64,000 nt of DNA from a virus: positions 18,591-82,590 of the IMG/VR virus record IMGVR_UViG_3300042691_020932; one strand, given 5' to 3'. The position numbers and the translations under genes were made by a program. The notes under the pieces are model-generated. The model ran no database searches. It saw only the letters and a list, made by a program, of their open reading frames with translations, and was not told the origin of the DNA. Numbering within the stretch: position 1 is the stretch's first letter; each line of letters begins with the position of its first letter. This document shows, piece by piece, positions 39,096-52,910 of this stretch.

Positions 39096-39099
39096 GAGA

Positions 39100-40325: not shown

Positions 40326-40326
40326 C

Positions 40327-40354: not shown

Positions 40355-40585
40355 CTATTTGTTTCGGGTGGATTCAGTTGTTACACTCTCCACCAATTCT
40401 TGCAGTTCATCGTCATCATAATAGTGCGACAGTTCTTCCATCAATTCACTCTCTTTATAGTCAATCATACTATCACAAATTGTGTCAATCGCAAATGCAC
40501 ACAAATCGCGCACATCCATATTGTCAACAACTCGCTCAGCATAGAGTTGAACGATCTTGGAAAGTTGGTCTTGAGAAAGTGTCAT
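40355..40585 (-). CDS. Unknown acidic protein of 76 residues
   Basis: MTLSQDQLSKIVQLYAERVV, with DLCAFAIDTICDSMIDYKES and an acidic helical tail. It is helical throughout and resembles small acidic cyanophage proteins I have seen. An earlier in-frame ATG (40615) overlaps the upstream gene and is less likely. Its stop codon abuts repeat copy 5. Confidence 0.75.
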   Translation of the reverse strand: MTLSQDQLSKIVQLYAERVVDNMDVRDLCAFAIDTICDSMIDYKESELMEELSHYYDDDELQELVESVTTESTRNK

Positions 40586-40611
40586 TTTGTTTGTAGGATT
40601 AGGAAGGGAAA

Positions 40612-40833
40612 TCATTGAATAACAGTGCTAGTATCAGGATTGAAAGTAACTTCGGAGATCACATCAAAATCATCACTCATCTTGACATAATTCCAGAGAG
40701 TGTCAGTCTCATCATCCACATTTTCCTGATAAAGGTGAATGAAACCGTCATCACCTTGTTTTACATAACAACCATCATAATTCTCATCATCAAATACATA
40801 ACCAGATGCAATCAGTGCTTCAGTAAATGTCAT
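40612..40833 (-). CDS. MTFTEALIASGY-type protein of 73 residues (paralogue 2)
   Basis: MTFTEALIASGYVFDDENYD, then an acidic stretch (DDGFIHLYQENVDDETDTLW). It is paralogous to the gene at 38478 over the first dozen residues and in general layout. The start overlaps the stop of the signal-peptide gene upstream. Function unknown. Confidence 0.75.
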   Translation of the reverse strand: MTFTEALIASGYVFDDENYDGCYVKQGDDGFIHLYQENVDDETDTLWNYVKMSDDFDVISEVTFNPDTSTVIQ

Positions 40834-40967
40834 CATTTGCAGTAGTTAGGGTTAATTTGGCAGAACTGATCTGCTTGGCGTTCTTGATACTCACTGGTCG
40901 TTGCGTGTGCTATCAAACCAAAGCGAAGACCGAGTGCTAGAGTAGCAATCAAAAAAGCAATTCGCAT
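40833..40967 (-). CDS. Small exported protein of 44 residues
   Basis: MRIAFLIATLALGLRFGLIA is a signal-peptide-like start (basic n-region, hydrophobic core, then AHA). The remaining 20 residues contain two Cys (QFCQINPNYCK) that could form a disulphide in the periplasm. Both ends overlap neighbours by 1-4 bp. Function unknown. Confidence 0.6.
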   Translation of the reverse strand: MRIAFLIATLALGLRFGLIAHATTSEYQERQADQFCQINPNYCK

Positions 40968-41113
40968 CAGACTTCATCCCTCATTTCGGTGAGTTTGTCA
41001 TACAGAGCAGGAATATCTGTCTCTGTAAGTTCAGTCAAATAGCACCAATCGCTAGACTCAAGAACTGCAAGAAGAGTATCAATCTCTTCAAAAGTGAGAG
41101 TGGTTTGTGTCAT
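40967..41113 (-). CDS. Unknown acidic protein of 48 residues
   Basis: MTQTTLTFEEIDTLLAVLES, then SDWCYLTELTETDIPALYDK. A short acidic helical protein, coupled to the exported protein downstream by a 1-bp overlap and 2 bp after the preceding gene. Function unknown. Confidence 0.65.
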   Translation of the reverse strand: MTQTTLTFEEIDTLLAVLESSDWCYLTELTETDIPALYDKLTEMRDEV

Positions 41114-41115
41114 AT

Positions 41116-41286
41116 TCAATCAACGACAGAGTAACAAGCAACCCAGGAAGGAATCCCAGAGAGTGATAACGAACCATTGCGGGCATCGCAATAGTCTTGT
41201 GCGTCATCTTCAGTGTAGAAAGGTCCAATATACTCGGGAGAATTGAGTGCATTGGAATCGAAGCGAACTGTGAATGTTTCAGTCAT
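41116..41286 (-). CDS. Unknown protein of 56 residues
   Basis: MTETFTVRFDSNALNSPEYI, then GPFYTEDDAQDYCDARNGSL. The TEDDAQDYCDARNG segment is typical of small alpha/beta phage proteins. The start at 41286 is preferred over one directly at the repeat (41301). Function unknown. Confidence 0.7.
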   Translation of the reverse strand: MTETFTVRFDSNALNSPEYIGPFYTEDDAQDYCDARNGSLSLSGIPSWVACYSVVD

Positions 41287-41299
41287 TGTGGTTTGTCTC

Positions 41300-41327
41300 A
41301 TACTACTAGGACACTTTGCAGGGCCCA
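41300..41327 (-). repeat. Intergenic 28-bp repeat, copy 6
   Basis: CTGC-core copy with upstream flank TGATAAACAC, the same flank as copy 3. Confidence 0.9.
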
Positions 41328-41334
41328 GTGTTTA

Positions 41335-41661
41335 TCAGTTACGCATCAGGGAAAGATAACCATCCTCGGAGAGAGTATCCTCAGACAGGTTGACATTGCG
41401 AGCACAAGAGATTGCATCAGCAAAGTTATCGAAAGTACCAAAGTTTTTCTGATTACCACACCAGCAACCTTTGTACTCATAAATCATTGCTTCCACAGTA
41501 AATACATCGTTTTTGAAGTTACGATCTACACTGTGCTTGATATAAACTTTCCCGTCATTTCGGGTGTACTTATCGAAGATGGAAGACTTGAAAGTAAGAG
41601 TGAAATCAGTGATGAAATCACCAGTGAGATTGATGCTTTTTTGGAAGAGAGTTTCAGTCAT
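41335..41661 (-). CDS. Unknown protein of 108 residues
   Basis: MTETLFQKSINLTGDFITDF, then beta-rich sequence (TLTFKSSIFDKYTRND, VYIKHSVDRNFKNDVFTVEA) and a CWCGNQKNFGTF turn. The stop is 7 bp before repeat copy 6, with repeat copy 7 upstream, so the gene is a cassette bounded by two copies. Function unknown. Confidence 0.75.
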   Translation of the reverse strand: MTETLFQKSINLTGDFITDFTLTFKSSIFDKYTRNDGKVYIKHSVDRNFKNDVFTVEAMIYEYKGCWCGNQKNFGTFDNFADAISCARNVNLSEDTLSEDGYLSLMRN

Positions 41662-41686
41662 TTAGTGGTTTTTCGTTTGAGTCCTT

Positions 41687-41714
41687 ATACTACTAGGACA
41701 CTTTAGGTGGCCCA
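41687..41714 (-). repeat. Intergenic 28-bp repeat, copy 7
   Basis: ACCT-core copy. It shares the flank TTTCAAATGATTAG with copy 4. Confidence 0.9.
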
Positions 41715-41718
41715 CTAA

Positions 41719-41862
41719 TCATTTGAAACTCACATTCACTCCAACAATTCTAGCAGTAGGATTGCGTACTTTTGCTGTCTCGCGTGCATCTTTTGGAGAG
41801 TTAGCATATACTTCCTCCTTAAAGACTTTGCCACCAACGTAGAGATCAACGATGTACTTCAT
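41719..41862 (-). CDS. Unknown protein of 47 residues
   Basis: MKYIVDLYVGGKVFKEEVYA, then NSPKDARETAKVRNPTARIV. A small beta-alpha-beta protein of a type I recall from cyanophages (YVGGKVFKEEVYA). It follows the longer intergenic element and a possible terminator. Function unknown. Confidence 0.73.
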   Translation of the reverse strand: MKYIVDLYVGGKVFKEEVYANSPKDARETAKVRNPTARIVGVNVSFK

Positions 41863-41876
41863 GTGCTTGTTTGTAT

Positions 41877-41999
41877 TTTAGAAAAAATTGATGATTTCAC
41901 TGCAGTGGATGACCTTTGACCCGTGTGCAGTGAAATTGCAGAAAAATCAGGTTTTTGGTTGAGTGGTGGACTGGGTTCTCGGTGAGACTCAAGTGAGAA
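41877..41999 (-). repeat. Second intergenic element, copy A (about 120 bp)
   Basis: Shares with 48101-48212 a 26-bp identical core containing CAGTGAAATTGCAGAAAA (plus strand), plus matching ends (TTTTAGAAAAAAT on one side, GGTGAGACTCA on the other). It fills the space from the stop at 42000 nearly to the start at 41862. Confidence 0.85.
41882..41936 (-). terminator. 11-bp stem-loop followed by T run inside the second intergenic element
   Basis: ATTTCACTGCA and TGCAGTGAAAT form a perfect 11-bp stem with a 21-nt loop. On the minus strand it is followed after CATCAA by TTTTTT. The stem is not preserved in the other copy of the element. Confidence 0.6.
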
Positions 42000-42191
42000 T
42001 CACAGGGTCTGCCAGTCTTGTGCCTCTTTCAAGTTAGAGTTAAAGAACTTTTGCAAGATAGACTCAATTACAGGTTGCCACTGTTTGTCTTTAATTGAGT
42101 CACGATTCTGTGCTTCGACAAGAAACTTAAGGATGCAAGTCTCTTCGTTTGGAGTGAAGTCAACGCGAGTGAAAGTGTAACCGTCAGTCAT
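42000..42191 (-). CDS. Unknown protein of 63 residues
   Basis: MTDGYTFTRVDFTPNEETCI, then LKFLVEAQNRDSIKDKQWQP and a C-terminal helix. The start overlaps the preceding stop. Its stop touches the second intergenic element. Function unknown. Confidence 0.7.
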   Translation of the reverse strand: MTDGYTFTRVDFTPNEETCILKFLVEAQNRDSIKDKQWQPVIESILQKFFNSNLKEAQDWQTL

Positions 42192-42418
42192 CATTTAATC
42201 CAGCAACTTTTGTTTGATTTGTTTTGTGCTCTTGCAAAAGAACCAGCATCGTGGCATAATTTAGAGAGTTTAATTAGAACCTCACGATCTTTCACTGGAC
42301 GCTCAAATGCAAGATCATTGTTCATACTTAGAGAGACCAAATCTCTCAACAATCTTTCACATCGAAGTGCCTCATTGATTGTAAAGTTTTCGTTGATAAT
42401 TGGGCGAAAGTTCTTCAT
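42191..42418 (-). CDS. Unknown helical protein of 75 residues
   Basis: MKNFRPIINENFTINEALRC, then LLRDLVSLSMNNDLAFERPV and a basic end (RAQNKSNKSCWIK). Mostly helical. An ATG two codons upstream is also possible. Function unknown. Confidence 0.7.
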   Translation of the reverse strand: MKNFRPIINENFTINEALRCERLLRDLVSLSMNNDLAFERPVKDREVLIKLSKLCHDAGSFARAQNKSNKSCWIK

Positions 42419-42420
42419 AA

Positions 42421-42588
42421 TCAAACAGGAAAAACTTCTACAGAACGAATAAGATTTGTGCGATCTTGTGCTAGGTAATCATCAGCGATTTTACCACACG
42501 ATGAACGAGATTGAATAATCTTTTCCTCATAAAGATTCTCATCTTCATCAGGAACCCAATACTCAATCAGCATACGATAGGTTTTCAT
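42421..42588 (-). CDS. Unknown acidic protein of 55 residues
   Basis: MKTYRMLIEYWVPDEDENLY, then EEKIIQSRSSCGKIADDYLA. Beta-then-helix layout. The start shares a base with the stop of the gene upstream, indicating coupling. Function unknown. Confidence 0.68.
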   Translation of the reverse strand: MKTYRMLIEYWVPDEDENLYEEKIIQSRSSCGKIADDYLAQDRTNLIRSVEVFPV

Positions 42589-42836
42589 CAGTAGTGTGCC
42601 TCAGAGTAGTCAAGAACTTCGCTGTACTTAGCGATACCATCATAGCAACGCTTTGCCATTTCAGAATCACCTTCAGCGATGTAACCTTTCAGAAACTCAA
42701 AGCAGTATTTGATACGCTGCTCTGGAGTAACTTTAGCGAGTTGTTGTTGCTTACGCTCATAGGCAGCGTTGTAGGCAAACATCTCACGATCTTCGAGGGA
42801 GATGTTGTGAAACTTGCGGTCGGTAGTGTTATTCAT
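42588..42836 (-). CDS. Unknown helical protein of 82 residues
   Basis: MNNTTDRKFHNISLEDREMF, then YNAAYERKQQQLAKVTPEQR and KYCFEFLKGYIAEGDSEMAK. Probably all helical, possibly a TPR-like hairpin. The ATG at 42836 is the end of repeat copy 8 itself, so the repeat directly abuts the start. Function unknown. Confidence 0.75.
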   Translation of the reverse strand: MNNTTDRKFHNISLEDREMFAYNAAYERKQQQLAKVTPEQRIKYCFEFLKGYIAEGDSEMAKRCYDGIAKYSEVLDYSEAHY

Positions 42837-42862
42837 ACTACTAGGACACTTTGCAGGGCCCA
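42835..42862 (-). repeat. Intergenic 28-bp repeat, copy 8
   Basis: CTGC-core copy with upstream flank TAACAAATAG. It lies between the stop at 42870 and the ATG at 42836. Confidence 0.9.
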
Positions 42863-42869
42863 CTATTTG

Positions 42870-43124
42870 TTACCAGCGGCCTTGTTGTATGAGAATCTTT
42901 TTGATTTCAGTATAAATGAACTGACGAAGTTTAGTGTCGGCAGTGTTATCAAAAGCATAATAAAGACGATTCAAATACTCATTCTGTGTCAGTCCAATGT
43001 TACCATCACCACCGATTTCATTGAGTGATGAACCTGCCTGCACACGATTCTTTCCAAAGTTGCCAGACACACGCCCAGTTGTTCTCAGTTTGGGCTTTAT
43101 CTTTGAGAGATTAGAGTATGTCAT
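42870..43124 (-). CDS. Unknown protein of 84 residues
   Basis: MTYSNLSKIKPKLRTTGRVS, with a basic, Gly-containing N-terminus (GNFGKNRVQAGSSLNEIGGD) and a helical C-terminus (LRQFIYTEIKKILIQQGRW). The layout suggests nucleic-acid or protein binding, but no family is recognised. It overlaps the upstream gene by 4 bp. Confidence 0.72.
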   Translation of the reverse strand: MTYSNLSKIKPKLRTTGRVSGNFGKNRVQAGSSLNEIGGDGNIGLTQNEYLNRLYYAFDNTADTKLRQFIYTEIKKILIQQGRW

Positions 43125-43306
43125 TTGAATTGTTCTAGAACATCAATAAAGTGTTGGATACAATCTTTGGGGATGTGGATGGTTTGGTATCCAGGACCAT
43201 TACCATCTTCCACACTCACAGTGCCATACTCATCAGCAGTAAAATCAAAACTCCAACCATCTTCTTCGTGTTCGATTTTGATGTGTTTGGTGATAGTGTA
43301 AGTCAT
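43121..43306 (-). CDS. Unknown protein of 61 residues
   Basis: MTYTITKHIKIEHEEDGWSF, then DFTADEYGTVSVEDGNGPGY and a C-terminal helix. A beta sheet plus one helix. Both ends overlap neighbours by 4 bp. Function unknown. Confidence 0.72.
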   Translation of the reverse strand: MTYTITKHIKIEHEEDGWSFDFTADEYGTVSVEDGNGPGYQTIHIPKDCIQHFIDVLEQFK

Positions 43307-43476
43307 TCATCCTCCTCATAAGGAAACATTTCGTCGTATTCTTCGTCAGTTAGAGTGAGATACTGAACATCAGCATTTTTGTGCTCTTCAGCATACACTA
43401 ATTGATAGTGTGCGAAAGAAGATGGGTCACTGCTAGCATACTCTACCAGACCATCAACAATACAAAGGTAGTTCAT
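43303..43476 (-). CDS. Unknown acidic protein of 57 residues
   Basis: MNYLCIVDGLVEYASSDPSS, then LVYAEEHKNADVQYLTLTDE and an acidic end (MFPYEEDE). Both ends overlap neighbours by 4 bp, which places it in a coupled four-gene run (43697 to 42870). Function unknown. Confidence 0.7.
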   Translation of the reverse strand: MNYLCIVDGLVEYASSDPSSFAHYQLVYAEEHKNADVQYLTLTDEEYDEMFPYEEDE

Positions 43477-43697
43477 CGTGCCAAAGATAAGTTGTATTTG
43501 ATAATCAAAAGGTCTCGCACTTGTTCTCGGTCGATACTATCACCACAGAACGGCACTTCTTTAATCTTTGCAATCCTGATAATGTCGTTGGTTGCTTTAC
43601 GAACTAGAGTACGATTTGCACCCATCGGATATAATCCATCAGGACCATAGAACGACATCACATAATCAATGAAATCGTTAATAAACTCTTTAGACAT
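43473..43697 (-). CDS. Conserved cyanophage protein of 74 residues
   Basis: MSKEFINDFIDYVMSFYGPD, then GLYPMGANRTLVRKATNDII and VPFCGDSIDREQVRDLLIIK. The FINDFIDYVMSFYG and DSIDREQVRD pattern recurs in cyanophages. Helical. Function unknown. Confidence 0.78.
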   Translation of the reverse strand: MSKEFINDFIDYVMSFYGPDGLYPMGANRTLVRKATNDIIRIAKIKEVPFCGDSIDREQVRDLLIIKYNLSLAR

Positions 43698-43699
43698 AA

Positions 43700-44134
43700 T
43701 CACTTAGCGTAGAGATAACCACCAGACCAATCGGCATTCTCCAGCAGATATTCACGATCTTTGATCAATCGCAGATCATAACGAACACCTTTGGCAGGAG
43801 ATTTCCAAGTCGCAGACTTATATACTTCGCCAGTGTTCTTGTCAATGAAGCAATGAACGGAGCGGGAACCGCCACCACTCACAAAGATGACTTTGTGATA
43901 CTTTTTACCAGTCTCAACAGTATAATCAATGTCACACTTGCCAGACTTGAGTTCATCAACCTTGCGAATGTGATACTCTACATTCTCACCACGCTCAGCA
44001 GAAGTCTGATGACCGCGAATAGAATACTGACGATAGTTGTCTTTCAGTGCTTCAATCAGCAGGAGAGTGTGCTTATACACATTCTCTGCGATGGTTTGTT
44101 TTGCTTGTGCTTGCATTTCAGTGGTTGTACTCAT
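43700..44134 (-). CDS. Conserved protein of 144 residues, unknown function
   Basis: MSTTTEMQAQAKQTIAENVY, a helical N-terminal half, then a beta half with KVIFVSGGGSRSVHCFIDKN, TGEVYKSATWKSPAKGVRYD and LLENADWSGGYLYAK. The C-terminal pattern (CFID-GEVYKSA-WKSPAKGVRYDLR) recurs in cyanophages and resembles small DNA-metabolism-associated proteins of unknown role. The ATG at 44134 is formed by the end of repeat copy 9; MQAQAK (44116) is an alternative start. Confidence 0.78.
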   Translation of the reverse strand: MSTTTEMQAQAKQTIAENVYKHTLLLIEALKDNYRQYSIRGHQTSAERGENVEYHIRKVDELKSGKCDIDYTVETGKKYHKVIFVSGGGSRSVHCFIDKNTGEVYKSATWKSPAKGVRYDLRLIKDREYLLENADWSGGYLYAK

Positions 44135-44160
44135 ACTACTAGGACACTTTGCAGGGCCCA
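44133..44160 (-). repeat. Intergenic 28-bp repeat, copy 9
   Basis: CTGC-core copy. It begins 1 bp after the stop at 44162 and ends in the ATG at 44134, so it is the whole intergenic region. Confidence 0.92.
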
Positions 44161-44161
44161 A

Positions 44162-45076
44162 TTACCAACTCTTTGCCATTGTGAAGTTTGCGTGAGAGAA
44201 TGTCTCGCGATCCACTACTTTGAAGATGCCGTAATCGTTTTTGATTACATAACCCTCGTGGAAACTTGCCACATCCCACAGGAAACATTCGATGTCGTCT
44301 TCTTCGTGAATGAAGAGGAACAAATCATCCTTGATTGTCTTCACCAACTTCCAAAGCCGGATGAGGTTCTTGTCACAATCACATTTTTCTGCAATTTCAT
44401 CCTCACAGATGATACGTTGCTCCCTGATGCAAGCATTGATCTCTTTTTTGATTTGTGATGCCTTGCGATCACTCACAAACTCACACAGAGTTGACATTTG
44501 CTTGGCAAACTTACACACATCTGCCAAATCCTCACGATAAGGATTCAGGGACACTGCAGGTTGCACGAATAAGCATTTCTTAGTGCTTGCAAACTTGCTG
44601 GTGATAGGGTGTGCTACCATTTCAGGCAGACGCTCACCAGTGTAGTAAGTATGGGGAGCAACGATAATCTCTTGACGAACAACCTCAGGAAACTTATAGG
44701 TAATGGTGTTGGGTTTGAATGTATCAAGACCCTTACCGAAACCAATCCAATCTCCCTGATACACATTGTTAGTGCGAGGCAGGAAATCCAAGCAATAGAT
44801 GAGGATTTGCGTTACGCGAGGTTGACCGCCAAAATGGGTAAAGATGTCGTCCTCGTTATAGCACAGGCGAATCTTTTGCTTATTAAATGCTGCTTTGGTG
44901 CAGACAAAAAACTTACCATTCTCAGGATTAGTGCCCCAAACAATAGCAGGAGCGCCATCCATCTTGACACTGATAGTAGAATCAGCACTGAACCAATCGA
45001 GCACCGAAAGATCACCATTTAGGATAGAATCTTCGGGATGTTCGATATGTTTGTTTTGCATTGGTTGCTTACTCAT
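44162..45076 (-). CDS. Ligase-superfamily nucleotidyltransferase-like protein (DUF6267-like)
   Basis: The 304 residues contain SVKMDGAPAIVWGTN (K38, D40, G41), which fits motif I (KxDG) of the ATP-dependent DNA/RNA ligase and capping-enzyme superfamily; VYQGDWIGFGKG in the place of motif III; and HEGYVIKNDYGIFKV (E274 to K279) as motif IV with a following motif V lysine. A helical, Cys-rich insert (about residues 195-245) is unusual. The family resembles phage proteins called DUF6267, as I recall. The lysine would form an AMP or GMP adduct; substrate unknown. The gene lies between repeat copies 9 and 10, with its start at the repeat end. Confidence 0.72.
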   Translation of the reverse strand: MSKQPMQNKHIEHPEDSILNGDLSVLDWFSADSTISVKMDGAPAIVWGTNPENGKFFVCTKAAFNKQKIRLCYNEDDIFTHFGGQPRVTQILIYCLDFLPRTNNVYQGDWIGFGKGLDTFKPNTITYKFPEVVRQEIIVAPHTYYTGERLPEMVAHPITSKFASTKKCLFVQPAVSLNPYREDLADVCKFAKQMSTLCEFVSDRKASQIKKEINACIREQRIICEDEIAEKCDCDKNLIRLWKLVKTIKDDLFLFIHEEDDIECFLWDVASFHEGYVIKNDYGIFKVVDRETFSHANFTMAKSW

Positions 45077-45102
45077 ACTACTAGGACACTTTGCAGGGCC
45101 CA
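45075..45102 (-). repeat. Intergenic 28-bp repeat, copy 10
   Basis: CTGC-core copy. It lies between the stop at 45106 and the ATG at 45076. Confidence 0.92.
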
Positions 45103-45105
45103 GAA

Positions 45106-45309
45106 TCAAACCTCTGCCAGTTTCTGTAGACGATTGCGAATATCAAAGAGTTCCATATCATCCATATCTACAGCATCCAAATCTACAGGAGCAAACTCCT
45201 CCAGATTTACACTACCATCAGAATAAATGGGGGCATAGTACAACTCATCGCCATCTTCTTGCGATAGAGTATAAACGCAACCGTGATTAGTGGAAGTAAC
45301 GAAAATCAT
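45106..45309 (-). CDS. Unknown acidic protein of 67 residues
   Basis: MIFVTSTNHGCVYTLSQEDG, then DELYYAPIYSDGSVNLEEFA and an acidic C-terminal helix. I recall a similar short family (YTLS-DGDEL-APIY) in cyanophages. The start at 45309 is just after a stem-loop. Function unknown. Confidence 0.75.
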   Translation of the reverse strand: MIFVTSTNHGCVYTLSQEDGDELYYAPIYSDGSVNLEEFAPVDLDAVDMDDMELFDIRNRLQKLAEV

Positions 45310-45337
45310 TGGAGTTTCAAGAACAAAGGTACAATAA

Positions 45338-45367
45338 AGGAGCACCTGCTAAATTACAAGTGCTCCT
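45338..45367 (-). terminator. 8-bp stem-loop, probable terminator
   Basis: AGGAGCAC and GTGCTCCT flank a 14-nt loop. On the minus strand TTTATTGT follows. It lies between the stop at 45378 and the start at 45309. Confidence 0.65.
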
Positions 45368-45377
45368 GTGCTAATTA

Positions 45378-45620
45378 TCAAACTGCTACACGACGTGCAG
45401 ACAGTTGTTGATTCACAAAGTTCAATACTTGCTTCACATAAGGAGAAACAGTTTGAGTGAACTTAACCACATCTTCACGAAGTTTGTTGACTTCATACTG
45501 ATGGATTTGCCAGCGAACCTGAATGTCTTGGAAGTATTGATCGCGAGTAATCAGTACCTGAGGGACGGACACTTCGGGAGCAACAACAACATTAGTGGTT
45601 TGCTTGCGAGCGCGAGGCAT
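45378..45620 (-). CDS. Unknown protein of 80 residues
   Basis: MPRARKQTTNVVVAPEVSVP, a basic start and Val-rich linker, then long helices (YFQDIQVRWQIHQYEVNKLR, VKFTQTVSPYVKQVLNFVNQ). A coiled-coil or DNA-associated role is possible but not shown. The ATG at 45620 is preferred over a frame through repeat copy 11. Confidence 0.7.
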   Translation of the reverse strand: MPRARKQTTNVVVAPEVSVPQVLITRDQYFQDIQVRWQIHQYEVNKLREDVVKFTQTVSPYVKQVLNFVNQQLSARRVAV

Positions 45621-45636
45621 GAAATGAATGCGTCTT

Positions 45637-45664
45637 ACATTACTAGGACACTTTACAGGGCCCA
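45637..45664 (-). repeat. Intergenic 28-bp repeat, copy 11
   Basis: CTGT-core copy with AATGTAAG in place of AGTATGAG. It begins 2 bp after the methyltransferase stop. Confidence 0.9.
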
Positions 45665-45666
45665 CT

Positions 45667-46743
45667 CTATGCAAAGAATGATTTTAGTGGATTTTGATTG
45701 ATCCTATGCTGTTCTGGTAGTGCTTGCCAGATAGTTTTCTCAATAATATCAAATCTGAGGTTATATGCACCATTTGTGGATGCAAAAGATACTTCAGACC
45801 AGTTAATTGATTGCATCACACTATCAAGAATCTTCTTGTCAGTAAGTGCTACAATTCCATAACCTCTACGATGTGGCAAATCCTCAAAATGTGTGTAATA
45901 CTTCATTGCTTCTGCACCAAAACATGTAGAAGGTAGATAATAGTCACATGCGTAGAGATGTTTCTTATTTCTTGTGCTTCCTGGAGTTCCACCATCAGAC
46001 AAAGAATACAATTTCACAATGTTACTCAGATCAACCTTTTCTTCCTCAATTTTGTGATGTTTGGCCCAAATCTGAAAGACAACATTAACGCTAACATCTT
46101 TGCCACCAGGATAATGAAACTCAGAATCTACAACCTCACTATGAATGAGATTCATATCTTTGACTCTTGATTTGCAACTACCCTTTCCGTTGCTATCAAA
46201 TAGTTGTGGCAAAATAAAGCACACAAAATCAGAGAACTGTGCGGCATGATTGATAAACTTAAGTGCCAAATGTCCTCGCAATCCGAATGGTGGATTACCG
46301 ATACATACGTTCTTCTCAGTGGTAGGTTTCCAGCGTAAAAAGTCCTGTTTCTCTACACCTTCACAGCGAGGTTCAATGTCTACACCAACGCGCTGATAGA
46401 TGGGTAGAACCTTATAGAAACTACCATCGCCAGCTGAGGGTTCAATGAACGTATATTCACGCAAATCTACACCAAGATCACCCAGAACTTTGAGAGTTTG
46501 CTTGTAGCAATACTCTGCAGTATCTGGGTGAGTAAAGAACTGATCTTTCTCTTTATCAGTGAAATTGGAGTAGAGAATTGGAACACCTGCTAACCGACAC
46601 AAATCAAAGTAGTATTGTGGCGGAACCTCTTTCTTCTCCATCCACCGATTTACTGTACCTTTGTGTAGATACAACTCCTCGCAGACAGCATCAATGCCAA
46701 ACTTTTGGTAGATGGGAAGAAAGAAGTCGTAGATGTTTTTCAT
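45667..46743 (-). CDS. N6-adenine DNA methyltransferase with N-terminal helix-turn-helix
   Basis: The 358 residues hold an N-terminal helix-turn-helix-like segment (about 15-55, with LHKGTVNRWMEKKEVP), then FTHPDTAEYCYKQTL as motif X, FIEPSAGDGSFY (100-110) as the AdoMet-binding motif I, VGVDIEP as motif II, and IGNPPFG (148-154) as the catalytic NPPF motif IV. This order fits gamma-type amino-methyltransferases of type II restriction-modification systems. The C-terminal 150 residues would be the target-recognition part. The start overlaps the stop of the putative nuclease gene upstream (ATGA). The HTH could make it autoregulatory, as in some MTases. Confidence 0.85.
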   Translation of the reverse strand: MKNIYDFFLPIYQKFGIDAVCEELYLHKGTVNRWMEKKEVPPQYYFDLCRLAGVPILYSNFTDKEKDQFFTHPDTAEYCYKQTLKVLGDLGVDLREYTFIEPSAGDGSFYKVLPIYQRVGVDIEPRCEGVEKQDFLRWKPTTEKNVCIGNPPFGLRGHLALKFINHAAQFSDFVCFILPQLFDSNGKGSCKSRVKDMNLIHSEVVDSEFHYPGGKDVSVNVVFQIWAKHHKIEEEKVDLSNIVKLYSLSDGGTPGSTRNKKHLYACDYYLPSTCFGAEAMKYYTHFEDLPHRRGYGIVALTDKKILDSVMQSINWSEVSFASTNGAYNLRFDIIEKTIWQALPEQHRINQNPLKSFFA

Positions 46744-47345
46744 GCAAGTTTGTTTGTCAGGAACTCCGATAGTGCTTCATCATCTGGATTTTCTACATCA
46801 TAGCAGAAAGTATAACCATTAGCAACACCCAGATGAACTTGCTTGTCGCGAAAATCCCACTTGTATTTGTCATTTTGATCGTTACGGAGAGTTGGTTTTG
46901 TGCCAAAGATTCCGTGACGAGCATCAAAAGTCACCTCAGAATAATCAAGAATAGTGAACCAAATCGTAGAATACTCAAAGTCAATGAAGACCAGTTTATC
47001 CCACTTCTCAGAGGCATAAAGATTCTCATGTTGCCATGCAGATTTCTTACCAGTTCCACGGCTAGCAGTCTTTACTTCGATGCGGAGTTTTGTACTATCA
47101 GGACGGTTAATCCAAATGTCATAAACACCGTCAGAGTTGTTGATGTTTTGATCCTCATCCCATTCTACATTGTAGGGAGTCAGTGCTTTGATAAACTTAT
47201 AGAGAGTTTGTTCTCCCCACTTACCACGTTCGTCGTTGCTAAGTTGTACGATCTCTTCAAAGTAAGATCCTTTCCAATAGTTACGCTCACGCAGTTTCTT
47301 GACAGCATCGCTGACAGTTTCGTTAAGAATGGTGCGGGATGACAT
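46740..47345 (-). CDS. Putative PD-(D/E)XK restriction endonuclease
   Basis: From MSSRTILNETVSDAVKKLRE (201 residues), an early helix contains ERGKWGEQTLYKF (E45). It is followed by GVYDIWIN (D76), then KLRIEVKTA (E90, K92), which is the D-Xn-ExK spacing of the PD-(D/E)XK nuclease fold. WDKLVFIDFEYSTIWFTIL adds the usual strands after the active site. Overlap with the methyltransferase gene by 4 bp makes a type II restriction partner the best reading. Other PD-(D/E)XK roles (repair or resolvase nuclease) remain possible. The start follows repeat copy 12; a longer frame through the repeat is rejected. Confidence 0.7.
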   Translation of the reverse strand: MSSRTILNETVSDAVKKLRERNYWKGSYFEEIVQLSNDERGKWGEQTLYKFIKALTPYNVEWDEDQNINNSDGVYDIWINRPDSTKLRIEVKTASRGTGKKSAWQHENLYASEKWDKLVFIDFEYSTIWFTILDYSEVTFDARHGIFGTKPTLRNDQNDKYKWDFRDKQVHLGVANGYTFCYDVENPDDEALSEFLTNKLA

Positions 47346-47361
47346 GAATTGAGTTGTGCTT

Positions 47362-47389
47362 ATATTATTGGGACAATTTAAAGGGCCCA
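47362..47389 (-). repeat. Intergenic 28-bp repeat, copy 12 (diverged)
   Basis: CTTT core, with AAATTGTCCCAATAATAT in place of the consensus. It is the most diverged copy and lies just upstream of the nuclease-methyltransferase pair. Confidence 0.85.
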
Positions 47390-47392
47390 CTA

Positions 47393-47572
47393 TCAGTCAA
47401 TGGGAAGTTTTGCCACACTTTTACCATTCTTGTGATCTGTGATATACTTTCGTGCAGAACTTTCAGTCCTACAAAGTTTCTCAAGTTGCTGACCGTTGTG
47501 GATAATAAGATACTGCTTCCCATAAGGAATAGCAGCATATGTATCCTTAAACATCGTAAATCCTTCTTTCAT
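47393..47572 (-). CDS. Unknown basic protein of 59 residues
   Basis: MKEGFTMFKDTYAAIPYGKQ, then YLIIHNGQQLEKLCRTESSA and a basic end. A small beta-alpha protein. The start overlaps the stop of the 176-residue gene (ATGA); MFKDTY six codons on is an alternative. Function unknown. Confidence 0.68.
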   Translation of the reverse strand: MKEGFTMFKDTYAAIPYGKQYLIIHNGQQLEKLCRTESSARKYITDHKNGKSVAKLPID

Positions 47573-48099
47573 ACAAGAAACCTCTTTTCATATTCCAGCA
47601 AATCAGATGGTGCAGGAATAATGTTGTCATCACATTCTACAGCATTTTCCCATCTTGCACCACTCTTTTGATATAGTTTGATATTAAGATGCTGGTACTT
47701 TAGGTTAGTTGGAACGTGTACTTTATAGTCAATTCCATCATTCTCAGTCAGCAAGCTAAGTTGCTTATTCTCACTCTTAGTCACTGTAATTGTGGAGCAA
47801 GATAACCAGAACAGATTCTCAAAAACATCATAATCTGATAGGTATTTGTCTGGGTTATCCATAATCATTCGACCAATGAATTGAGGTGACAAACAATGGT
47901 CGTGAGTGCGCTCTTTTGGATTATTCTTTGCTTCCTCACTTATCAATCCAAGATGATTCACTTGAGCGCAATCAAATACACCAATGTAGTAAATGCGTGT
48001 GATAGGTCGGAAGAAATCAGGGTCGCCCCAGTTGTCTACATTAGCACTCAAAGAGTTGAATGTAGTCTGACAGTAGGCTTTCCAGTTCTTGGAGTTCAT
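47569..48099 (-). CDS. Unknown protein of 176 residues next to the nuclease-methyltransferase pair
   Basis: MNSKNWKAYCQTTFNSLSAN, then YYIGVFDCAQVNHLGLISEE, KERTHDHCLSPQFIGRMIMD and NLFWLSCSTITVTKSENKQL. The THDHCLSPQ segment has a His-rich metal-site look, reminiscent of but not matching HNH nucleases. It starts directly after the second intergenic element and precedes the nuclease-methyltransferase pair by one small gene. It may be an accessory part of that module, but nothing proves it. Confidence 0.72.
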   Translation of the reverse strand: MNSKNWKAYCQTTFNSLSANVDNWGDPDFFRPITRIYYIGVFDCAQVNHLGLISEEAKNNPKERTHDHCLSPQFIGRMIMDNPDKYLSDYDVFENLFWLSCSTITVTKSENKQLSLLTENDGIDYKVHVPTNLKYQHLNIKLYQKSGARWENAVECDDNIIPAPSDLLEYEKRFLV

Positions 48100-48100
48100 T

Positions 48101-48212
48101 TTAGAAAAAATCGGTGTTTTTGTTGCAGTGGATGGGTTCTAGGTCGGTTGCAGTGAAATTGCAGAAAAATCAGGGTTTTGGTCTAGGTGGCCACTGGATT
48201 CTTGGGTGAGAC
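48101..48212 (-). repeat. Second intergenic element, copy B (about 112 bp)
   Basis: Shares with 41877-41999 the identical core CAGTGAAATTGCAGAAAA (plus strand) and both ends. It fills the gap between the helicase stop (48213) and the next start (48099). The stem of copy A is not conserved here. Confidence 0.85.
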
Positions 48213-49445
48213 TCACCGCCTCACCACCGATACGGCAGGTTCTCCCTTCTCGAAGATGGTATCAACCACAGACTGAACTGCGCGAGCGGTGCTGATACCA
48301 ACCTTGCTGTAGACAGGAATGCAAACCAGACCGAACGATTTGCTATACTGACTCAGGTTGCCAGGTTCGATACGTCCTTCGCGCATAGCTTTGGCATCAT
48401 CGTGATGCAAACGGATGCAACGTCCGATGGTCTGACTGATGCCAATGAAGTCCATATTACGCAGGAACAGCACTGCTTCCAGACCGCTCACATTGATACC
48501 CTCAGCAAGGATACTGTGGTGAAGAACAACAAACTTCTTATCGTTATCCTTACCCCATGCAGATAGAGTGTCGAAGAATACCTCACGGTTGACCTTCTGA
48601 CCGTCAATAACTGCGCCAGTCTTGGCAGTAATATACATCCAAGAGTATCCGCGACATTCCAGTTGGAAACAGAAATCAGTTTCAGTCACCAGCGATACGA
48701 TTTGCTTGGTTGCCTTAGCACAAATCAGAATCTTGCCGACCTTGTTCTCATCAATCGTTTCCAGCAGATTCTCAGAATCGCGGTCGAAGTTGGTCTGCTT
48801 ACCAGTTACCATAGCCAGTTGCTTGACGATGACTTTGGGGGGCACAATGTAACCACCTTCAACCAACTCAGGAGCAGGAACTTTGCAGATTACCTGACCG
48901 TAAACATCAGCATCATTCATCCCAGGTTTGCCAGTAGCAAGGGAATGTTTGGGAGTTGCAGTGAAGAAATAGCAGCGGCGAGCAGTAGCAGCAAAGTGCT
49001 CTGTTGCAGGGAAAAAGTGACGCTGAACGCTGTTATGTGCCTCATCAAAGTAAATAGTATCCACATCAACTTCTGCCACTTGCAGACGCGACAGAGAGTT
49101 GTAGGTAGTTACAATCAAGCGATGGCTATCAGCATTGGCATCAACCCAGTTACGAATCTCACGGGGGCGAGTAGAGGATTCGTGATGAGTTTCGCCACTG
49201 TGAACGTGCAAAACTTTAGCGTTGGTGATGAACTCCAGGAACTCGCTAGAGAGTTGCTCTGCCAACAAAATACGAGGAGCAACAACAACAATGGTCTGGG
49301 GAGTTTCAGACTGCAACTCACGCAGAGCATCATAGATCATCTTGAGAGTCTTGCCACCGCCAGTAGGAACAATGATCTGACCTTTATCATGCTGTTGCAT
49401 AGCAGCAACACCACGTTCTTGATGCGGACGAAGTTGGATTTGCAT
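48213..49445 (-). CDS. Superfamily 2 DNA/RNA helicase
   Basis: The 410 residues show IVPTGGGKT (Walker A, about 25-33), VVVAPRILLAEQL (motif Ia), FDEAH (133-137, DEAH motif II), FTATP (161-165, motif III) and ISQTIGRCIRLH (motif VI with the arginine finger). It fits the ResIII/UvsW-type SF2 helicases conserved in T4-like cyanophages, used in recombination-dependent replication and fork remodelling. It is shorter than T4 UvsW (about 500 residues) and may be a second helicase besides a UvsW elsewhere. The start MQIQLRPHQE (49445) is preferred over ATGs at 49457/49454, which lie at repeat copy 13. Confidence 0.88.
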   Translation of the reverse strand: MQIQLRPHQERGVAAMQQHDKGQIIVPTGGGKTLKMIYDALRELQSETPQTIVVVAPRILLAEQLSSEFLEFITNAKVLHVHSGETHHESSTRPREIRNWVDANADSHRLIVTTYNSLSRLQVAEVDVDTIYFDEAHNSVQRHFFPATEHFAATARRCYFFTATPKHSLATGKPGMNDADVYGQVICKVPAPELVEGGYIVPPKVIVKQLAMVTGKQTNFDRDSENLLETIDENKVGKILICAKATKQIVSLVTETDFCFQLECRGYSWMYITAKTGAVIDGQKVNREVFFDTLSAWGKDNDKKFVVLHHSILAEGINVSGLEAVLFLRNMDFIGISQTIGRCIRLHHDDAKAMREGRIEPGNLSQYSKSFGLVCIPVYSKVGISTARAVQSVVDTIFEKGEPAVSVVRR

Positions 49446-49456
49446 TGGTTTCATCA

Positions 49457-49484
49457 TCTAGTATTAGGACACTTTGCAGGGCCC
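49457..49484 (-). repeat. Intergenic 28-bp repeat, copy 13
   Basis: CTGC-core copy with upstream flank TAACTGATAC, just upstream of the helicase gene. Confidence 0.9.
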
Positions 49485-49488
49485 AGTA

Positions 49489-49689
49489 TCAGTTACAAAC
49501 TTTTTTATAGCAGTTCAGTCTATCAATTACACCTTGCATTGTAGCACGATTGTAACCATTTGCAAAGGGTAGACTTCTCTCAGTTTCAGGATTAGAACCA
49601 AAATCAACATTTTGGGAGACATTAACACCCTCTTGAAGAAGGCGAATGACATCATCAAAGACAAAATCAGGGATTTGAATGTAATTCAT
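49489..49689 (-). CDS. Unknown protein of 66 residues
   Basis: MNYIQIPDFVFDDVIRLLQE, then GVNVSQNVDFGSNPETERSL and YNRATMQGVIDRLNCYKKV. Helical with a Gly/Asn-rich loop. It has a terminator just upstream (49718-49753), so its transcript probably begins locally. Function unknown. Confidence 0.7.
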   Translation of the reverse strand: MNYIQIPDFVFDDVIRLLQEGVNVSQNVDFGSNPETERSLPFANGYNRATMQGVIDRLNCYKKVCN

Positions 49690-49717
49690 TGTTCTCAGTG
49701 GTTTGGTATCTAAAGAC

Positions 49718-49753
49718 AAAAATAGCACGCTTAGAGGTCAATCTGAGCGTGCT
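49718..49753 (-). terminator. Intrinsic terminator, 8-bp GC-rich stem with T run
   Basis: On the minus strand AGCACGCT, a 14-nt loop and AGCGTGCT are followed by ATTTTTG. It ends the transcript of the 51-residue gene. Confidence 0.82.
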
Positions 49754-49765
49754 GGTGGGGTTTAA

Positions 49766-49921
49766 TCAACCTCCAAACATTTCATCAAACAACCAATCAC
49801 CAGAACGCTCTTTTTCTTCCCAGACTTTGTTAGCGTTTGCTTCAATCATTGCTCGTTCAATCTTAATGTCAAGGGCAGATTTAGTGCTGAACCAGTTACC
49901 GTTGCGGTCTTGCCAGAGCAT
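49766..49921 (-). CDS. Unknown protein of 51 residues
   Basis: MLWQDRNGNWFSTKSALDIK, then ERAMIEANANKVWEEKERSG and an aromatic end. Helical and acidic. It lies between repeat copy 14 and an intrinsic terminator, so it may form its own small transcription unit. Function unknown. Confidence 0.65.
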   Translation of the reverse strand: MLWQDRNGNWFSTKSALDIKIERAMIEANANKVWEEKERSGDWLFDEMFGG

Positions 49922-49944
49922 AATGTCGTTTGAGTGTTGTCCTT

Positions 49945-49972
49945 ATACTACTAGGACACTTTAGAGGGCCCA
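49945..49972 (-). repeat. Intergenic 28-bp repeat, copy 14
   Basis: CTCT-core copy with upstream flank TAACAAATAC. Here TACT-GGGC pairs well with GTCC-T-AGTA (8 bp with one bulge). Confidence 0.9.
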
Positions 49973-49982
49973 GTATTTGTTA

Positions 49983-50561
49983 TCAGGGTTGATATTTGGA
50001 AGCGGGAAGATCTCTACCTTTGATGATGTCTGAATGTAAACGCTTACCAGCTCTTACCATCTTCTTCTTCTCATCTCTAGTATATTCGTGCTTGGTTGTT
50101 CTTTCAATCTTCTCACCTTTTGGCGCTTCTTCTTTCTTCTTGGTGAGAAGTTTTGATGCTTGCTTTACTAAATCTTTTGATTTAGGTTTTGCTGCTGGAG
50201 TTTCACCACCAGACTTTGCTGCTCTTCTAGCAAGTGCTGCCTTTCTTCTTTCTTCCTTTGCTGCTGCTAGTTGTCTCTCTCTAGCAGATCCACGCTCTTG
50301 TTCTGGTGCTTGAGTTCTAGTTTCAGAACTACGCTGAGTTCCAATATCTTTGCGTGGTTTGTATTCTTTTGCAGGTACAGTTGTGCCACCTGGACCTCTC
50401 TTAGTTCTGCGTCTTTCAGCTTCAGTCTTCTTGCGTTCTTTACCTATTCTTCCACCCGCACCCTGGCGGGTGATGGATGCACCACCACCCCAACCAAGTT
50501 GTTTAGCGGCATCGGCATCAGATGCTTCGCAAAGAGACATAAACTGTGAAAAGGTACGCAT
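49983..50561 (-). CDS. Basic Lys/Arg/Ala-rich protein with T4-like capsid-targeting N-terminus (candidate internal head protein)
   Basis: MRTFSQFMSLCEASDADAAK starts like the capsid-targeting sequences of T4 internal proteins (MKTYQEF...). LCE followed by Ala fits the gp21 protease rule (Leu/Ile-x-Glu, then cut). The remaining 180 residues are highly basic and low-complexity (KERKKTEAERRRTKRG, KEERRKAALARRAAKSGG, KEEAPKGEKIERTTK), suited to binding packaged DNA. A late-like motif (TCTAAATA) lies 27-34 bp upstream, unlike its early-type neighbours. Packaging in the head and injection into the host are inferences. Confidence 0.72.
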   Translation of the reverse strand: MRTFSQFMSLCEASDADAAKQLGWGGGASITRQGAGGRIGKERKKTEAERRRTKRGPGGTTVPAKEYKPRKDIGTQRSSETRTQAPEQERGSARERQLAAAKEERRKAALARRAAKSGGETPAAKPKSKDLVKQASKLLTKKKEEAPKGEKIERTTKHEYTRDEKKKMVRAGKRLHSDIIKGRDLPASKYQP

Positions 50562-50587
50562 TGGACTATCTAAACACTACTTTTTAG

Positions 50588-50595
50588 TATTTAGA
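50588..50595 (-). promoter_or_regulatory. Late promoter-like motif TCTAAATA
   Basis: 7 of 8 matches to TATAAATA on the minus strand, 27 bp before the ATG of the basic 192-residue gene. Confidence 0.4.
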
Positions 50596-50791
50596 AGTCC
50601 TCTTCCTTTGCTTTATATGAACCCTTGAAGACACGTCCTTCAGCATAAAATTGCTTCACACGTTCGCGGCGAGTAGCAATCAAAAGATCATACTCTTCTT
50701 GCTGTTGTTTGGTGAAGTTGAAATCTTGACGCCTCCAAGCATCTTTCAGTTCTTGAATGTGGGGGAGCACGTTAGGGATTTGTTCGATCAT
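50591..50791 (-). CDS. Conserved cyanophage protein of 66 residues, unknown function
   Basis: MIEQIPNVLPHIQELKDAWR, then DFNFTKQQQEEYDLLIATRR and an end with KGSYKAKEEDF. This IPNV-ALKDAWR-QDF-FT-QQ pattern is familiar from cyanophages. All helical. Function unknown. Confidence 0.77.
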   Translation of the reverse strand: MIEQIPNVLPHIQELKDAWRRQDFNFTKQQQEEYDLLIATRRERVKQFYAEGRVFKGSYKAKEEDF

Positions 50792-50851
50792 TTTAGAATA
50801 ATAAAGGATCAGGAGTCAGTGTGGGGGATTTGGTAGACAGTTTGAGAACTG

Positions 50852-50986
50852 TCAGTAGTCGATGTTTGATTTAAGATATTCATTCATATTGAAATCTTTT
50901 ACATCTTCAACAAGATCAGAAAGATCTTCGTCAATGAAGTCGAAGTTTTCAAGTTCCTCAATTTGAATGTCGTCGAACCAGTCCAT
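50852..50986 (-). CDS. Very acidic protein of 44 residues
   Basis: MDWFDDIQIEELENFDFIDE, then DLSDLVEDVKDFNMNEYLKS. Almost every third residue is Asp or Glu. Such small acidic phage proteins can mimic DNA or inhibit host enzymes, but this is only a possibility. A GACAGTT/AACTGTC stem (50836-50853) overlaps its stop codon. It follows repeat copy 15. Confidence 0.62.
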   Translation of the reverse strand: MDWFDDIQIEELENFDFIDEDLSDLVEDVKDFNMNEYLKSNIDY

Positions 50987-51001
50987 AGTGTGTGGGTGAT
51001 T

Positions 51002-51029
51002 ACATTATTAGGACACTTTACAGGGCCCA
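51002..51029 (-). repeat. Intergenic 28-bp repeat, copy 15
   Basis: CTGT-core copy with AATAATGTAA in place of AGTAGTATGA. It lies 6 bp after the stop of the 215-residue gene. Confidence 0.9.
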
Positions 51030-51035
51030 ATAATA

Positions 51036-51683
51036 TTAAAGTGGAGAGTTGCTAGTGTTTTGAATCATTCTCTTCATAAATCCACTAGAAGGTTGTGTTT
51101 TTTGTGGTTGCTTCACTTTCATTGGAGGAGGTCCAGATGGCTTCATAGCAGAACGAAGATTTTGTTGTGATGTTGTGTCAAGTGGAATTACATTTTCTGG
51201 TTTGATTGCATCACCCACAGCTTCTCTAGCAATTTCTCTTTTTATCTCTGATTTTAGTTGTTCTTTTTCTCTTCTTTTTGCAAGTCTTTTTCTATTTGCA
51301 TTTACTCGCGCAGATATTCTTTCCTTAAACTGACTAACACCTTCTCTTTGTCTTTGCATTAGTTGCTTTCTTCTTTGCTCCAAATCTTCAAATAGATCAT
51401 GATCTAGATGATTTGGATCCATTGAAGGACTTTGTTCTTCAATCTTCTTGACTGATTTTGCCAACTTCTTCAGTCTTTGTTTTACTGCCTTTCCACCACT
51501 ACGCTTTACAACTAGCTTATCAATTTCTTTCTTTTTTGGTTTACCCAATGGTCCATCATAACTCTGAAGAGTATATGAAATAGTTCCTTCACTGTCTCTC
51601 TTATAAGTTCCTGGAACTGCGTGTGGAGCAGTATCGGGTTTTTTACCTTCGCAGATTTCGTAGAACTCTCTAAATGTTAGCAT
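51036..51683 (-). CDS. Basic protein with T4-like capsid-targeting N-terminus (candidate internal head protein)
   Basis: MLTFREFYEICEGKKPDTAP begins like the gene at 49983. ICE followed by Gly fits the Leu/Ile-x-Glu cleavage rule of the T4 gp21 head protease. The body is basic and helical (KLVVKRSGGKAVKQRLKKLA, KERISARVNANRKRLAKRRE, KEQLKSEIKREIAREAV) and ends with a Pro/Ser/Gln-rich tail. A late promoter motif (AATAAATA) lies 20-27 bp upstream of the ATG, although neighbouring genes look early. The combination points to a late, head-packaged protein; function after injection unknown. Confidence 0.74.
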   Translation of the reverse strand: MLTFREFYEICEGKKPDTAPHAVPGTYKRDSEGTISYTLQSYDGPLGKPKKKEIDKLVVKRSGGKAVKQRLKKLAKSVKKIEEQSPSMDPNHLDHDLFEDLEQRRKQLMQRQREGVSQFKERISARVNANRKRLAKRREKEQLKSEIKREIAREAVGDAIKPENVIPLDTTSQQNLRSAMKPSGPPPMKVKQPQKTQPSSGFMKRMIQNTSNSPL

Positions 51684-51702
51684 CTTACTTATACTTTTTG
51701 AT

Positions 51703-51710
51703 TATTTATT
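51703..51710 (-). promoter_or_regulatory. T4-type late promoter motif AATAAATA
   Basis: 7 of 8 matches on the minus strand, 20 bp before the ATG of the 215-residue basic gene, in the 28-bp gap after the preceding stop. Confidence 0.55.
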
Positions 51711-51711
51711 T

Positions 51712-51978
51712 TTACTCAAACTCAAGAGTTCTATTTGATACTTTCATAGGTGGAGTTTTATATTCTGGAAGTGTAGAAGTTTCAACGTATACTTCTATCT
51801 TAGTCTCATCATTCCAATGACGGATTGCATTTGCCACAATGAAACAGTTGGTAATGAGAATGGATAGAAACATCAAAAGGCGGATAAGAGCAATCTTATC
51901 CGCTTCTTTATCACATTTACTTGCTTTTTCACCCAATGCTTTAGCAAGCAGTCGCCAGACAGTTTTGTTCTTCTTCAT
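51712..51978 (-). CDS. Membrane protein of 88 residues
   Basis: MKKNKTVWRLLAKALGEKAS, a basic cytoplasmic N-terminus, then one hydrophobic span (IRLLMFLSILITNCFIVANA) and a polar tail. I recall DK-A-IR-...-FIVANxIRHW proteins in cyanophages. It overlaps the preceding gene by 38 bp. Function unknown. Confidence 0.72.
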   Translation of the reverse strand: MKKNKTVWRLLAKALGEKASKCDKEADKIALIRLLMFLSILITNCFIVANAIRHWNDETKIEVYVETSTLPEYKTPPMKVSNRTLEFE

Positions 51979-52204
51979 AGACCGATTCTCTTGATTTAAC
52001 ATACTCCAACTGTTTCCATTGATTATTATAGCAAATTACAAGCAATCTTTCATTTGCGTGAATAGAGCAGGCGCGATAATTGAGTTCATCTTTAGGCCGA
52101 ACACTATATTCAATAGTAATGTATTCTTCGCACTTGAAATAAACCCAGCCCTCAACACCTTTAGTCCATTTTACATAGTCGTTGACTCTTGGAGTGTAAT
52201 CCAT
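51941..52204 (-). CDS. Conserved protein of 87 residues, unknown function
   Basis: MDYTPRVNDYVKWTKGVEGW, then VYFKCEEYITIEYSVRPKDE and RLLVICYNNQWKQLEYVKSR. The beta-rich NDYVxWxKGVEGWVYFK pattern is well conserved in cyanophages, as I recall. Possibly a small barrel. It overlaps the next gene by 38 bp, which is long for this region. Confidence 0.77.
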   Translation of the reverse strand: MDYTPRVNDYVKWTKGVEGWVYFKCEEYITIEYSVRPKDELNYRACSIHANERLLVICYNNQWKQLEYVKSRESVYEEEQNCLATAC

Positions 52205-52206
52205 AT

Positions 52207-52497
52207 CTAAACAAAAAACGCATCCAATGGAGATTGCTTAAGTGGCATCGCAGTATAATTCCGCGTATCCTTGATATTTACACGAGCACCGATGGACTTA
52301 CTATTGATGGGGGAGAAGTATTCTCTGGTTTTGGTATTGTAGAAGGAGTGTATAGTCCTGGTTGGAGCACCGCCATTATAGACAAACTTGCGAGTGTTGC
52401 ATAACCAAATACTGACAACATTTCGCTTGAAGTCTTCACATTCATAATAGTATCCTTCTGGAGGAGAATATGGAAGAGGTGGAACTTCAACAGTCAT
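52207..52497 (-). CDS. Conserved protein of 96 residues, unknown function
   Basis: MTVEVPPLPYSPPEGYYYEC, then NVVSIWLCNTRKFVYNGGAP, HSFYNTKTREYFSPINSKSI and DTRNYTAMPLKQSPLDAFF. It is beta-rich, of a type I recall from cyanophages (IWLCH-FxYN, FYNTKxxEYYxPVNSK). The start at 52497 overlaps the upstream gene by 11 bp. Confidence 0.76.
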   Translation of the reverse strand: MTVEVPPLPYSPPEGYYYECEDFKRNVVSIWLCNTRKFVYNGGAPTRTIHSFYNTKTREYFSPINSKSIGARVNIKDTRNYTAMPLKQSPLDAFFV

Positions 52498-52654: not shown

Positions 52655-52656
52655 AA

Positions 52657-52887: not shown

Positions 52888-52910
52888 TTGTTTTTGTAAA
52901 TTACCTCTTG

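Follow-up and report, generated by a model that had tools for sequence, protein, structure and literature searches.

Several virus-encoded systems bear on the locus considered here. The restriction enzymes of chloroviruses reportedly do not cause mutual exclusion and are held responsible for the rapid degradation of host DNA (PMC7019647). In Aureococcus anophagefferens virus (AaV), a study from 2025 reported 6mA at TGNNCA, a modification assigned to a gamma-class methyltransferase (MTase) of an Hpy178III-like clade, and identified no adjacent restriction enzyme (PMC12700378). As for cyanomyoviruses, these phages are reported to lack denA, ndd, and denB, and a review has raised the possibility that they rely on an undescribed method of dealing with host DNA (PMC2984593). 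The present analysis addresses a predicted restriction-modification pair, comprising a nuclease (R) and an MTase (M), encoded in a 64-kb stretch of DNA, here termed the window, taken from an 82.6-kb IMG/VR virus record. Its gene content, together with best matches to SynMITS9220M01, S-SM2, and further Synechococcus phages, puts the window among the T4-like cyanophages.

Organization of the R-M locus

The initial annotation had described R and M as neighboring genes overlapping by an ATGA sequence. Re-examination of the window showed the coordinates, the reading frames, and the 4-nt overlap to be exact in each case (Table 1). The residues that had been assigned to a PD-(D/E)XK active site in R, namely, D76, E90, and K92, were likewise present, with E45 now being added, as were motif X (FFTHPDTAEYCY), motif I (residues 99–109), and motif IV (residues 150–153) of M. 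In dozens of further viral contigs, the two genes are likewise found side by side, with intact and conserved products; the pair is therefore not a chance arrangement, and its existence in the window is confirmed. Between R and the upstream helicase gene lies an ORF encoding a 176-aa protein (window 47569–48099) for which no family match was obtained; a likely homolog, SynMITS9220M01_056, is found at the same position in SynMITS9220M01, a cyanophage without the R-M pair.

Table 1. Features of the R-M locus and its surroundings (window positions).
Feature	Position	Strand	Basis
R, predicted type II restriction endonuclease, PD-(D/E)XK fold, 201 aa	46740..47345	-	ORF, alignments, Foldseek
R active-site helix Glu45	47211..47213	-	alignments
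R catalytic Asp76	47118..47120	-	alignments
R catalytic Glu90-x-Lys92	47070..47078	-	alignments
ATGA overlap, R stop/M start, 4 nt; also R-exchange breakpoint in relatives	46740..46743	-	
M, predicted gamma-class N6-adenine DNA methyltransferase, 358 aa	45667..46743	-	PADLOC, profile match, motifs
M N-terminal helix-turn-helix-like domain, residues 16–51	46591..46698	-	conserved GT-x-x-RW segment, model
M motif X	46498..46539	-	alignment
M motif I FIEPSAGDGSF	46417..46449	-	alignment
M motif IV NPPF	46285..46296	-	alignment
Repeat copy 12, upstream of R	47353..47411	-	
Repeat copy 11, downstream of M, upstream of gene 45378–45620	45628..45686	-	
Gene downstream of the repeat copy 3' of M	45378–45620		
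UvsW-like helicase (Pfam ResIII/DEAD), upstream flank, conserved neighbor of R-M pair	48213..49457	-	
DUF6267 protein, downstream flank, conserved neighbor of R-M pair	44162..45070	-	

Predicted properties of R and M

In alignment A1 of phage R sequences, E45, D76, E90, and K92 are invariant. Across 62 aligned R sequences, of which 30 were from phages and 32 from bacteria, D76, E90, and K92 were identical throughout, with the position equivalent to Glu45 being occupied by E in 28 of the 32 bacterial proteins. Comparison of R with Pfam and NCBIfam revealed no family above cut-off, only weak similarity to RmuC and NOV_C (Pfam), and a sequence search against the PDB returned nothing useful. The predicted structure of R (mean pLDDT 71) was next compared to known structures using Foldseek. 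The top PDB matches, all with E >0.001, were mostly PD-(D/E)XK nucleases, with SPARDA nucleases, NhoI, MepB, I-Ssp6803I, EcoRV, and a DNA-bound restriction enzyme (3ndh) being among the proteins matched. The best matches in the viral models of BFVD were to three proteins of 189–471 aa, one of them the AaV protein A0A076FFB8 (E 7e-7). R is predicted to be a nuclease with an intact PD-(D/E)XK active site, for which support at the level of the modelled fold is weak but consistent.

M matched the PADLOC type II MTase model PDLC03280 across nearly the whole of its catalytic part (E 2.1e-51). No Pfam or NCBIfam family scored above cut-off, and the sole yield of a sequence search against the PDB was a weak profile match to the motif region of M.TaqI (E 0.0064). 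Motifs X, I, and IV are conserved and appear in the gamma order X-I-IV, followed by a C-terminal target domain. Since the AlphaFold model of M, for which 9 sequences served as input, was of low quality (pLDDT 49), structural matches to M were excluded as evidence. In that model, the N-terminal helix-turn-helix-like domain comprises three helices of better confidence than the remainder of the protein; no Pfam match to this domain was found. It is possible that the domain allows for autoregulation.

R and M are linked in viruses and in bacteria

In IMG/VR, R was detected at 46 loci and M at 24, with some contigs being common to both. In every locus able to show both genes, R immediately precedes M, mostly with an overlap or a gap of a few bases, the one exception being L027, an 8.9-kb contig that contains R of class 2 and from which M is absent. 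No match was obtained when two R proteins were compared to cultured phages by tblastn, nor did an R profile match any of 84,980 bacterial and archaeal genomes through the patterns of R itself. Bacterial R homologs were instead found because a profile of M, which detected 52 loci in bacterial and archaeal genomes (41–57% identity), led to the neighbors of M. In this manner, an R homolog was found near M in 33 of the 52 loci, usually in the order M-R; 32 of these were identified by profile search, usually directly downstream of M, and one (L081), convergent with M, by tblastn. The bacterial R proteins gave weak matches to PADLOC type II restriction endonucleases.

The bacterial pairs, found in Helicobacter, Rickettsiales, Bacilli, Mollicutes, and others, thus resemble the phage pair in that homologous M and R are neighbors, with M mostly sharing 41–50% identity over nearly its full length and R sharing about 23–33%. 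They differ in their usual gene order and in their specificity, which apparently either is another one or leaves no trace in site avoidance. A single genome, that of Candidatus Phytoplasma australiense, contains the M homolog several times, in complete or broken form (L117, L122, L127, and L130), with no R being found beside the copies examined.

R is exchanged beside a nearly constant M

Among 26 phage pairs, the identity of R hardly predicts that of M (r = 0.25). For instance, L033 and L036 share 93% identity in M and 37% in R, while window M is 84% identical to M of L015 and L016, the R proteins of which are 43–44% identical to window R. At the DNA level, identity of approximately 0.5 in R climbs to 0.8–0.95 where M begins, with a second rise being seen upstream, within the helicase gene. 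The jump in identity at the R/M junction, together with the decoupled identities of R and M, argues for three R classes having moved between M lineages. Judging from these alignments, it is R alone that is exchanged, M remaining almost the same and the breakpoint falling at the junction of the two genes.

TGNNCA sites are depleted in several lineages carrying the pair

An initial, hypothesis-free scan of motifs, for which a small number of unrelated cyanophages served as comparison, gave no clear answer, since these phages avoid several palindromes. The point was resolved by a flank-matched comparison of contigs from the same phage group, all containing both the helicase and the DUF6267 genes yet differing in the R-M pair. 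In the flank-matched R-M contigs, the observed/expected ratio of TGNNCA was 0.03–0.21 (L311, counted as an R-M contig by the script, encodes only a distant M of 35% identity and no R, and gave 0.61). By contrast, the ratio in the 95 flank-matched contigs lacking the pair had a median of 0.68 and a range of 0.32–0.91, these controls including overlapping contigs of the same phages, such that contig counts overstate independence. Inspection of the records of those control contigs with the smallest ratios (e.g., L189, 0.32) revealed no hidden R-M pair. When 557 gapped palindromes were compared, TGNNCA reached z = -17.5, with its own sub-motif as runner-up; the motif lists tested overlap between scans, and z values here serve to rank motifs and are not probabilities.

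Three independent R-M cyanophage lineages were then each compared to their nearest relatives without the pair, a contrast unaffected by the overlap among the control contigs. Of 1423 motifs, TGNNCA was by far the most depleted, with 65 vs. 330, 13 vs. 100, and 8 vs. 151 sites in the R-M lineage and in its pair-less relatives, respectively, as assessed by raw density at about 75–90% DNA identity. In the orthologous helicase gene, the three lineages contain 0, 1, and 0 TGNNCA sites, as compared to an average of 5.0 across 81 relatives. Depletion extends to additional R-M lineages (G008, 0.09; L028, 0.06; L060, 0.15; L071, 0.18; and G005, 0.25), and each of the three R classes occurs among the depleted contigs. 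Five other R-M lineages are at the cyanophage baseline (G004, 0.53; G006, 0.55; G007, 0.72; L034, 0.61; and L055, 0.60). The R-only contig L027 contains a single TGNNCA where 53 are expected.

In phages, it is TGNNCA that is tied to the pair and not the TCNNGA palindrome of Hpy178III-like enzymes. In bacterial genomes with homologous pairs, TGNNCA was not singled out, and no clear signal was seen for either TGNNCA or TCNNGA. In Helicobacter bilis and H. apodemus (L318–L320 and L328–L329), which encode a homologous M-R pair, GTNNAC is present at 0.03–0.05 of expectation, and this sequence is possibly the site of bacterial M-R members. In the phages, the loss of TGNNCA is tied to the R-M pair, although whether it is R or M that reads the site cannot be distinguished from genomes; TGNNCA would be the site common to both. 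The near-loss of this site in carriers, and not in close relatives without the pair, suggests that R works in nature.

The earlier proposal of a restriction-modification pair, here predicted to be of type II, is well supported, given the conserved linkage of R and M, the homologous bacterial pairs, the invariant catalytic residues, and the lineage-specific loss of TGNNCA. R and M are separate adjacent genes (L027 excepted), M presents adenine MTase motifs in the gamma order, and the R active site is intact.

A parallel loss of CTAG in cultured cyanophages

In cyanophage S-SM2, an R of the MjaI family, which recognizes CTAG, is encoded without an adjacent methylase (L134:5978–6505; GU071095.1 50147–50674). 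Not one CTAG is present in about 187 of the 190.8 kb of this genome, where 295 are expected. In S-RIM32, S-CAM3, and S-H9-2, where an MjaI-family R precedes an adjacent M, CTAG occurs at 0.07–0.19 of expectation, as compared to 0.76–0.80 in two cyanophages without an MjaI-family enzyme. While the annotation of these genes as restriction enzyme and methylase is that of GenBank, the loss of CTAG was computed in the present analysis. Like the window pair, the three MjaI-family pairs present R before M with a 4-nt overlap, belong to T4-like cyanophages, and are accompanied by strong loss of the matching site; they differ in that R is of an unrelated family (PF09568), M is of the N6_N4_Mtase type, and the site is CTAG. 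In the 50–55 kb examined from S-RIM32, S-CAM3, and S-H9-2 (L158, L159, and L160), CCGG is present at 0.00 of expectation. In S-CAM3, a further methyltransferase, of the D12 class, is encoded close to the R-M pair.

Proposed role of the pair

It is quite probable that R and M form a functional type II pair in which M methylates and R cuts TGNNCA, that the host chromosome is mainly targeted, and that imperfect protection has led to site loss. In such a scheme, M would methylate the adenine in TGNNCA on phage DNA, while R would cut unmethylated TGNNCA. An infecting genome, having been methylated in the previous cell, would be safe at once. Because the incoming genome is already methylated, R could be made first, with R preceding M in the operon. 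R would then cut unmethylated DNA, mainly the host chromosome, with M keeping progeny DNA methylated. Were such protection imperfect, selection would also have cleared the phage genome of most TGNNCA sites. The pair probably serves to shred host DNA, the host chromosome being favored as the main target in light of the chlorovirus precedent (PMC7019647) and because cyanomyoviruses are reported to lack denA, ndd, and denB (PMC2984593).

A broader proposal, for and against which we find the balance to be even, is that T4-like cyanophages use interchangeable restriction enzymes for host DNA destruction, with self-protection by methylation or by site erasure and with the nuclease being swapped beside a constant M. 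Methylation would then be represented by the TGNNCA pair and the MjaI-type pairs, and erasure by S-SM2 (CTAG) and the R-only contig L027 (TGNNCA).

Alternative explanations

The main rival explanation for the role of the pair retains the same enzymes and site yet holds the main target to be competing phages entering the same cell, such that the pair would provide defense or superinfection exclusion. The majority of related phages do not encode the pair and contain many TGNNCA sites, and so would be cut upon co-entry. Still, the chlorovirus enzymes, the closest functional precedent, reportedly degrade host DNA without mutual exclusion (PMC7019647), and a well-conserved M common to all R-M relatives would preclude exclusion among them, rendering this explanation rather unlikely. 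Less probable again is that TGNNCA restriction by the host drove both site loss and the acquisition of M as protection, with R being a passenger or serving another function. Although several other palindromes are also avoided, as expected from host restriction pressure, and M relatives are widespread in bacteria, three contrasts between close relatives of the same group tie TGNNCA loss to the pair. Moreover, the catalytic residues of R are kept in 30 of 30 phage sequences, R is replaced rather than lost, and the most depleted contig is the R-only L027, with R-only S-SM2 behaving alike for CTAG. Very little likelihood can be assigned to R being a structure-specific repair, recombination, or homing nuclease found by chance beside an orphan methyltransferase. 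The weak similarities of R to RmuC and NOV_C in Pfam and to I-Ssp6803I in Foldseek, as well as the exchange of R while M stays, could be so understood, yet R and M homologs are neighbors in diverse bacteria in the opposite gene order, and a nuclease that recognizes DNA structure would not be expected to bring about the loss of a single sequence-specific palindrome.

The initial annotation had also noted that copies 11 and 12 of an intergenic repeat flank the R-M pair, as is indeed the case (45631–45675 and 47356–47400, respectively), and had accordingly viewed the pair as a mobile cassette. This repeat (TGGGCCC...AAAGTGTCCTAGTAGTAT, minus strand) is, however, found in 16 copies of one orientation between most genes or operons from window position 35943 to 54590, such that its flanking of the pair is nothing special. 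In nearly all relatives, the repeat, itself found in few of them, is absent around the pair, and in several of those without the repeat, the pair lies at the same place between the same two flanking genes. Hence, despite the exact flanking by two copies and the patchy distribution of the pair among relatives, a selfish cassette moved by the repeats is highly improbable, and the proposal was abandoned. A reading of the repeat as a PeSL cassette was also rejected. Like the PeSL of T4-like phages, the repeat is an intergenic element recurring amid variable small genes; unlike PeSL, its copies fold no better than shuffled sequence, and it shows no association with the pair in relatives. Sigma-70-like matches over the repeat region are near chance, and the succession of an early promoter and a stem-loop terminator was not found in the repeat. 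The repeat is probably part of the expression control of the region.

Comparison with known systems

As a candidate for host DNA destruction, the R-M pair can be compared to the DenA, DenB, and Ndd proteins of T4 acting together with hydroxymethylcytosine. The proposed outcome is the same, with host DNA being destroyed and phage DNA spared by modification, whereas the proteins and chemistry are unrelated and the T4 genes are reported missing from cyanomyoviruses (PMC2984593). The pair offers a concrete candidate for how cyanomyoviruses dismantle host DNA, with TGNNCA as the predicted site. As a restriction enzyme of a phage leaves a readable footprint in its own genome, the sites of phage nucleases can be inferred from close relatives with and without the gene.

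The Hpy178III-like gamma MTases (TCNNGA) and the algal giant virus clade IIIA that includes AaV provide a further parallel to the predicted activity of M, in that an enzyme of the gamma class methylates the adenine of a gapped four-base palindrome (PMC12700378). M is likened to the AaV MTases by class and site, and R-like proteins of AaV and other viruses match window R by fold; the difference is that the AaV authors reported no adjacent restriction enzyme (PMC12700378). The CviAI and CviAII systems of chlorovirus PBCV-1 differ from the window pair in their eukaryotic algal host, in their GATC and CATG sites, and in that a virion-packaged R is known for chlorovirus. In arrangement and in the function predicted for the window pair, however, they are alike, with adjacent R and adenine M genes being encoded by the virus, and with virus DNA being protected by methylation while unprotected host DNA is degraded (PMC7019647, PMC12700378), as is proposed here for the window pair.
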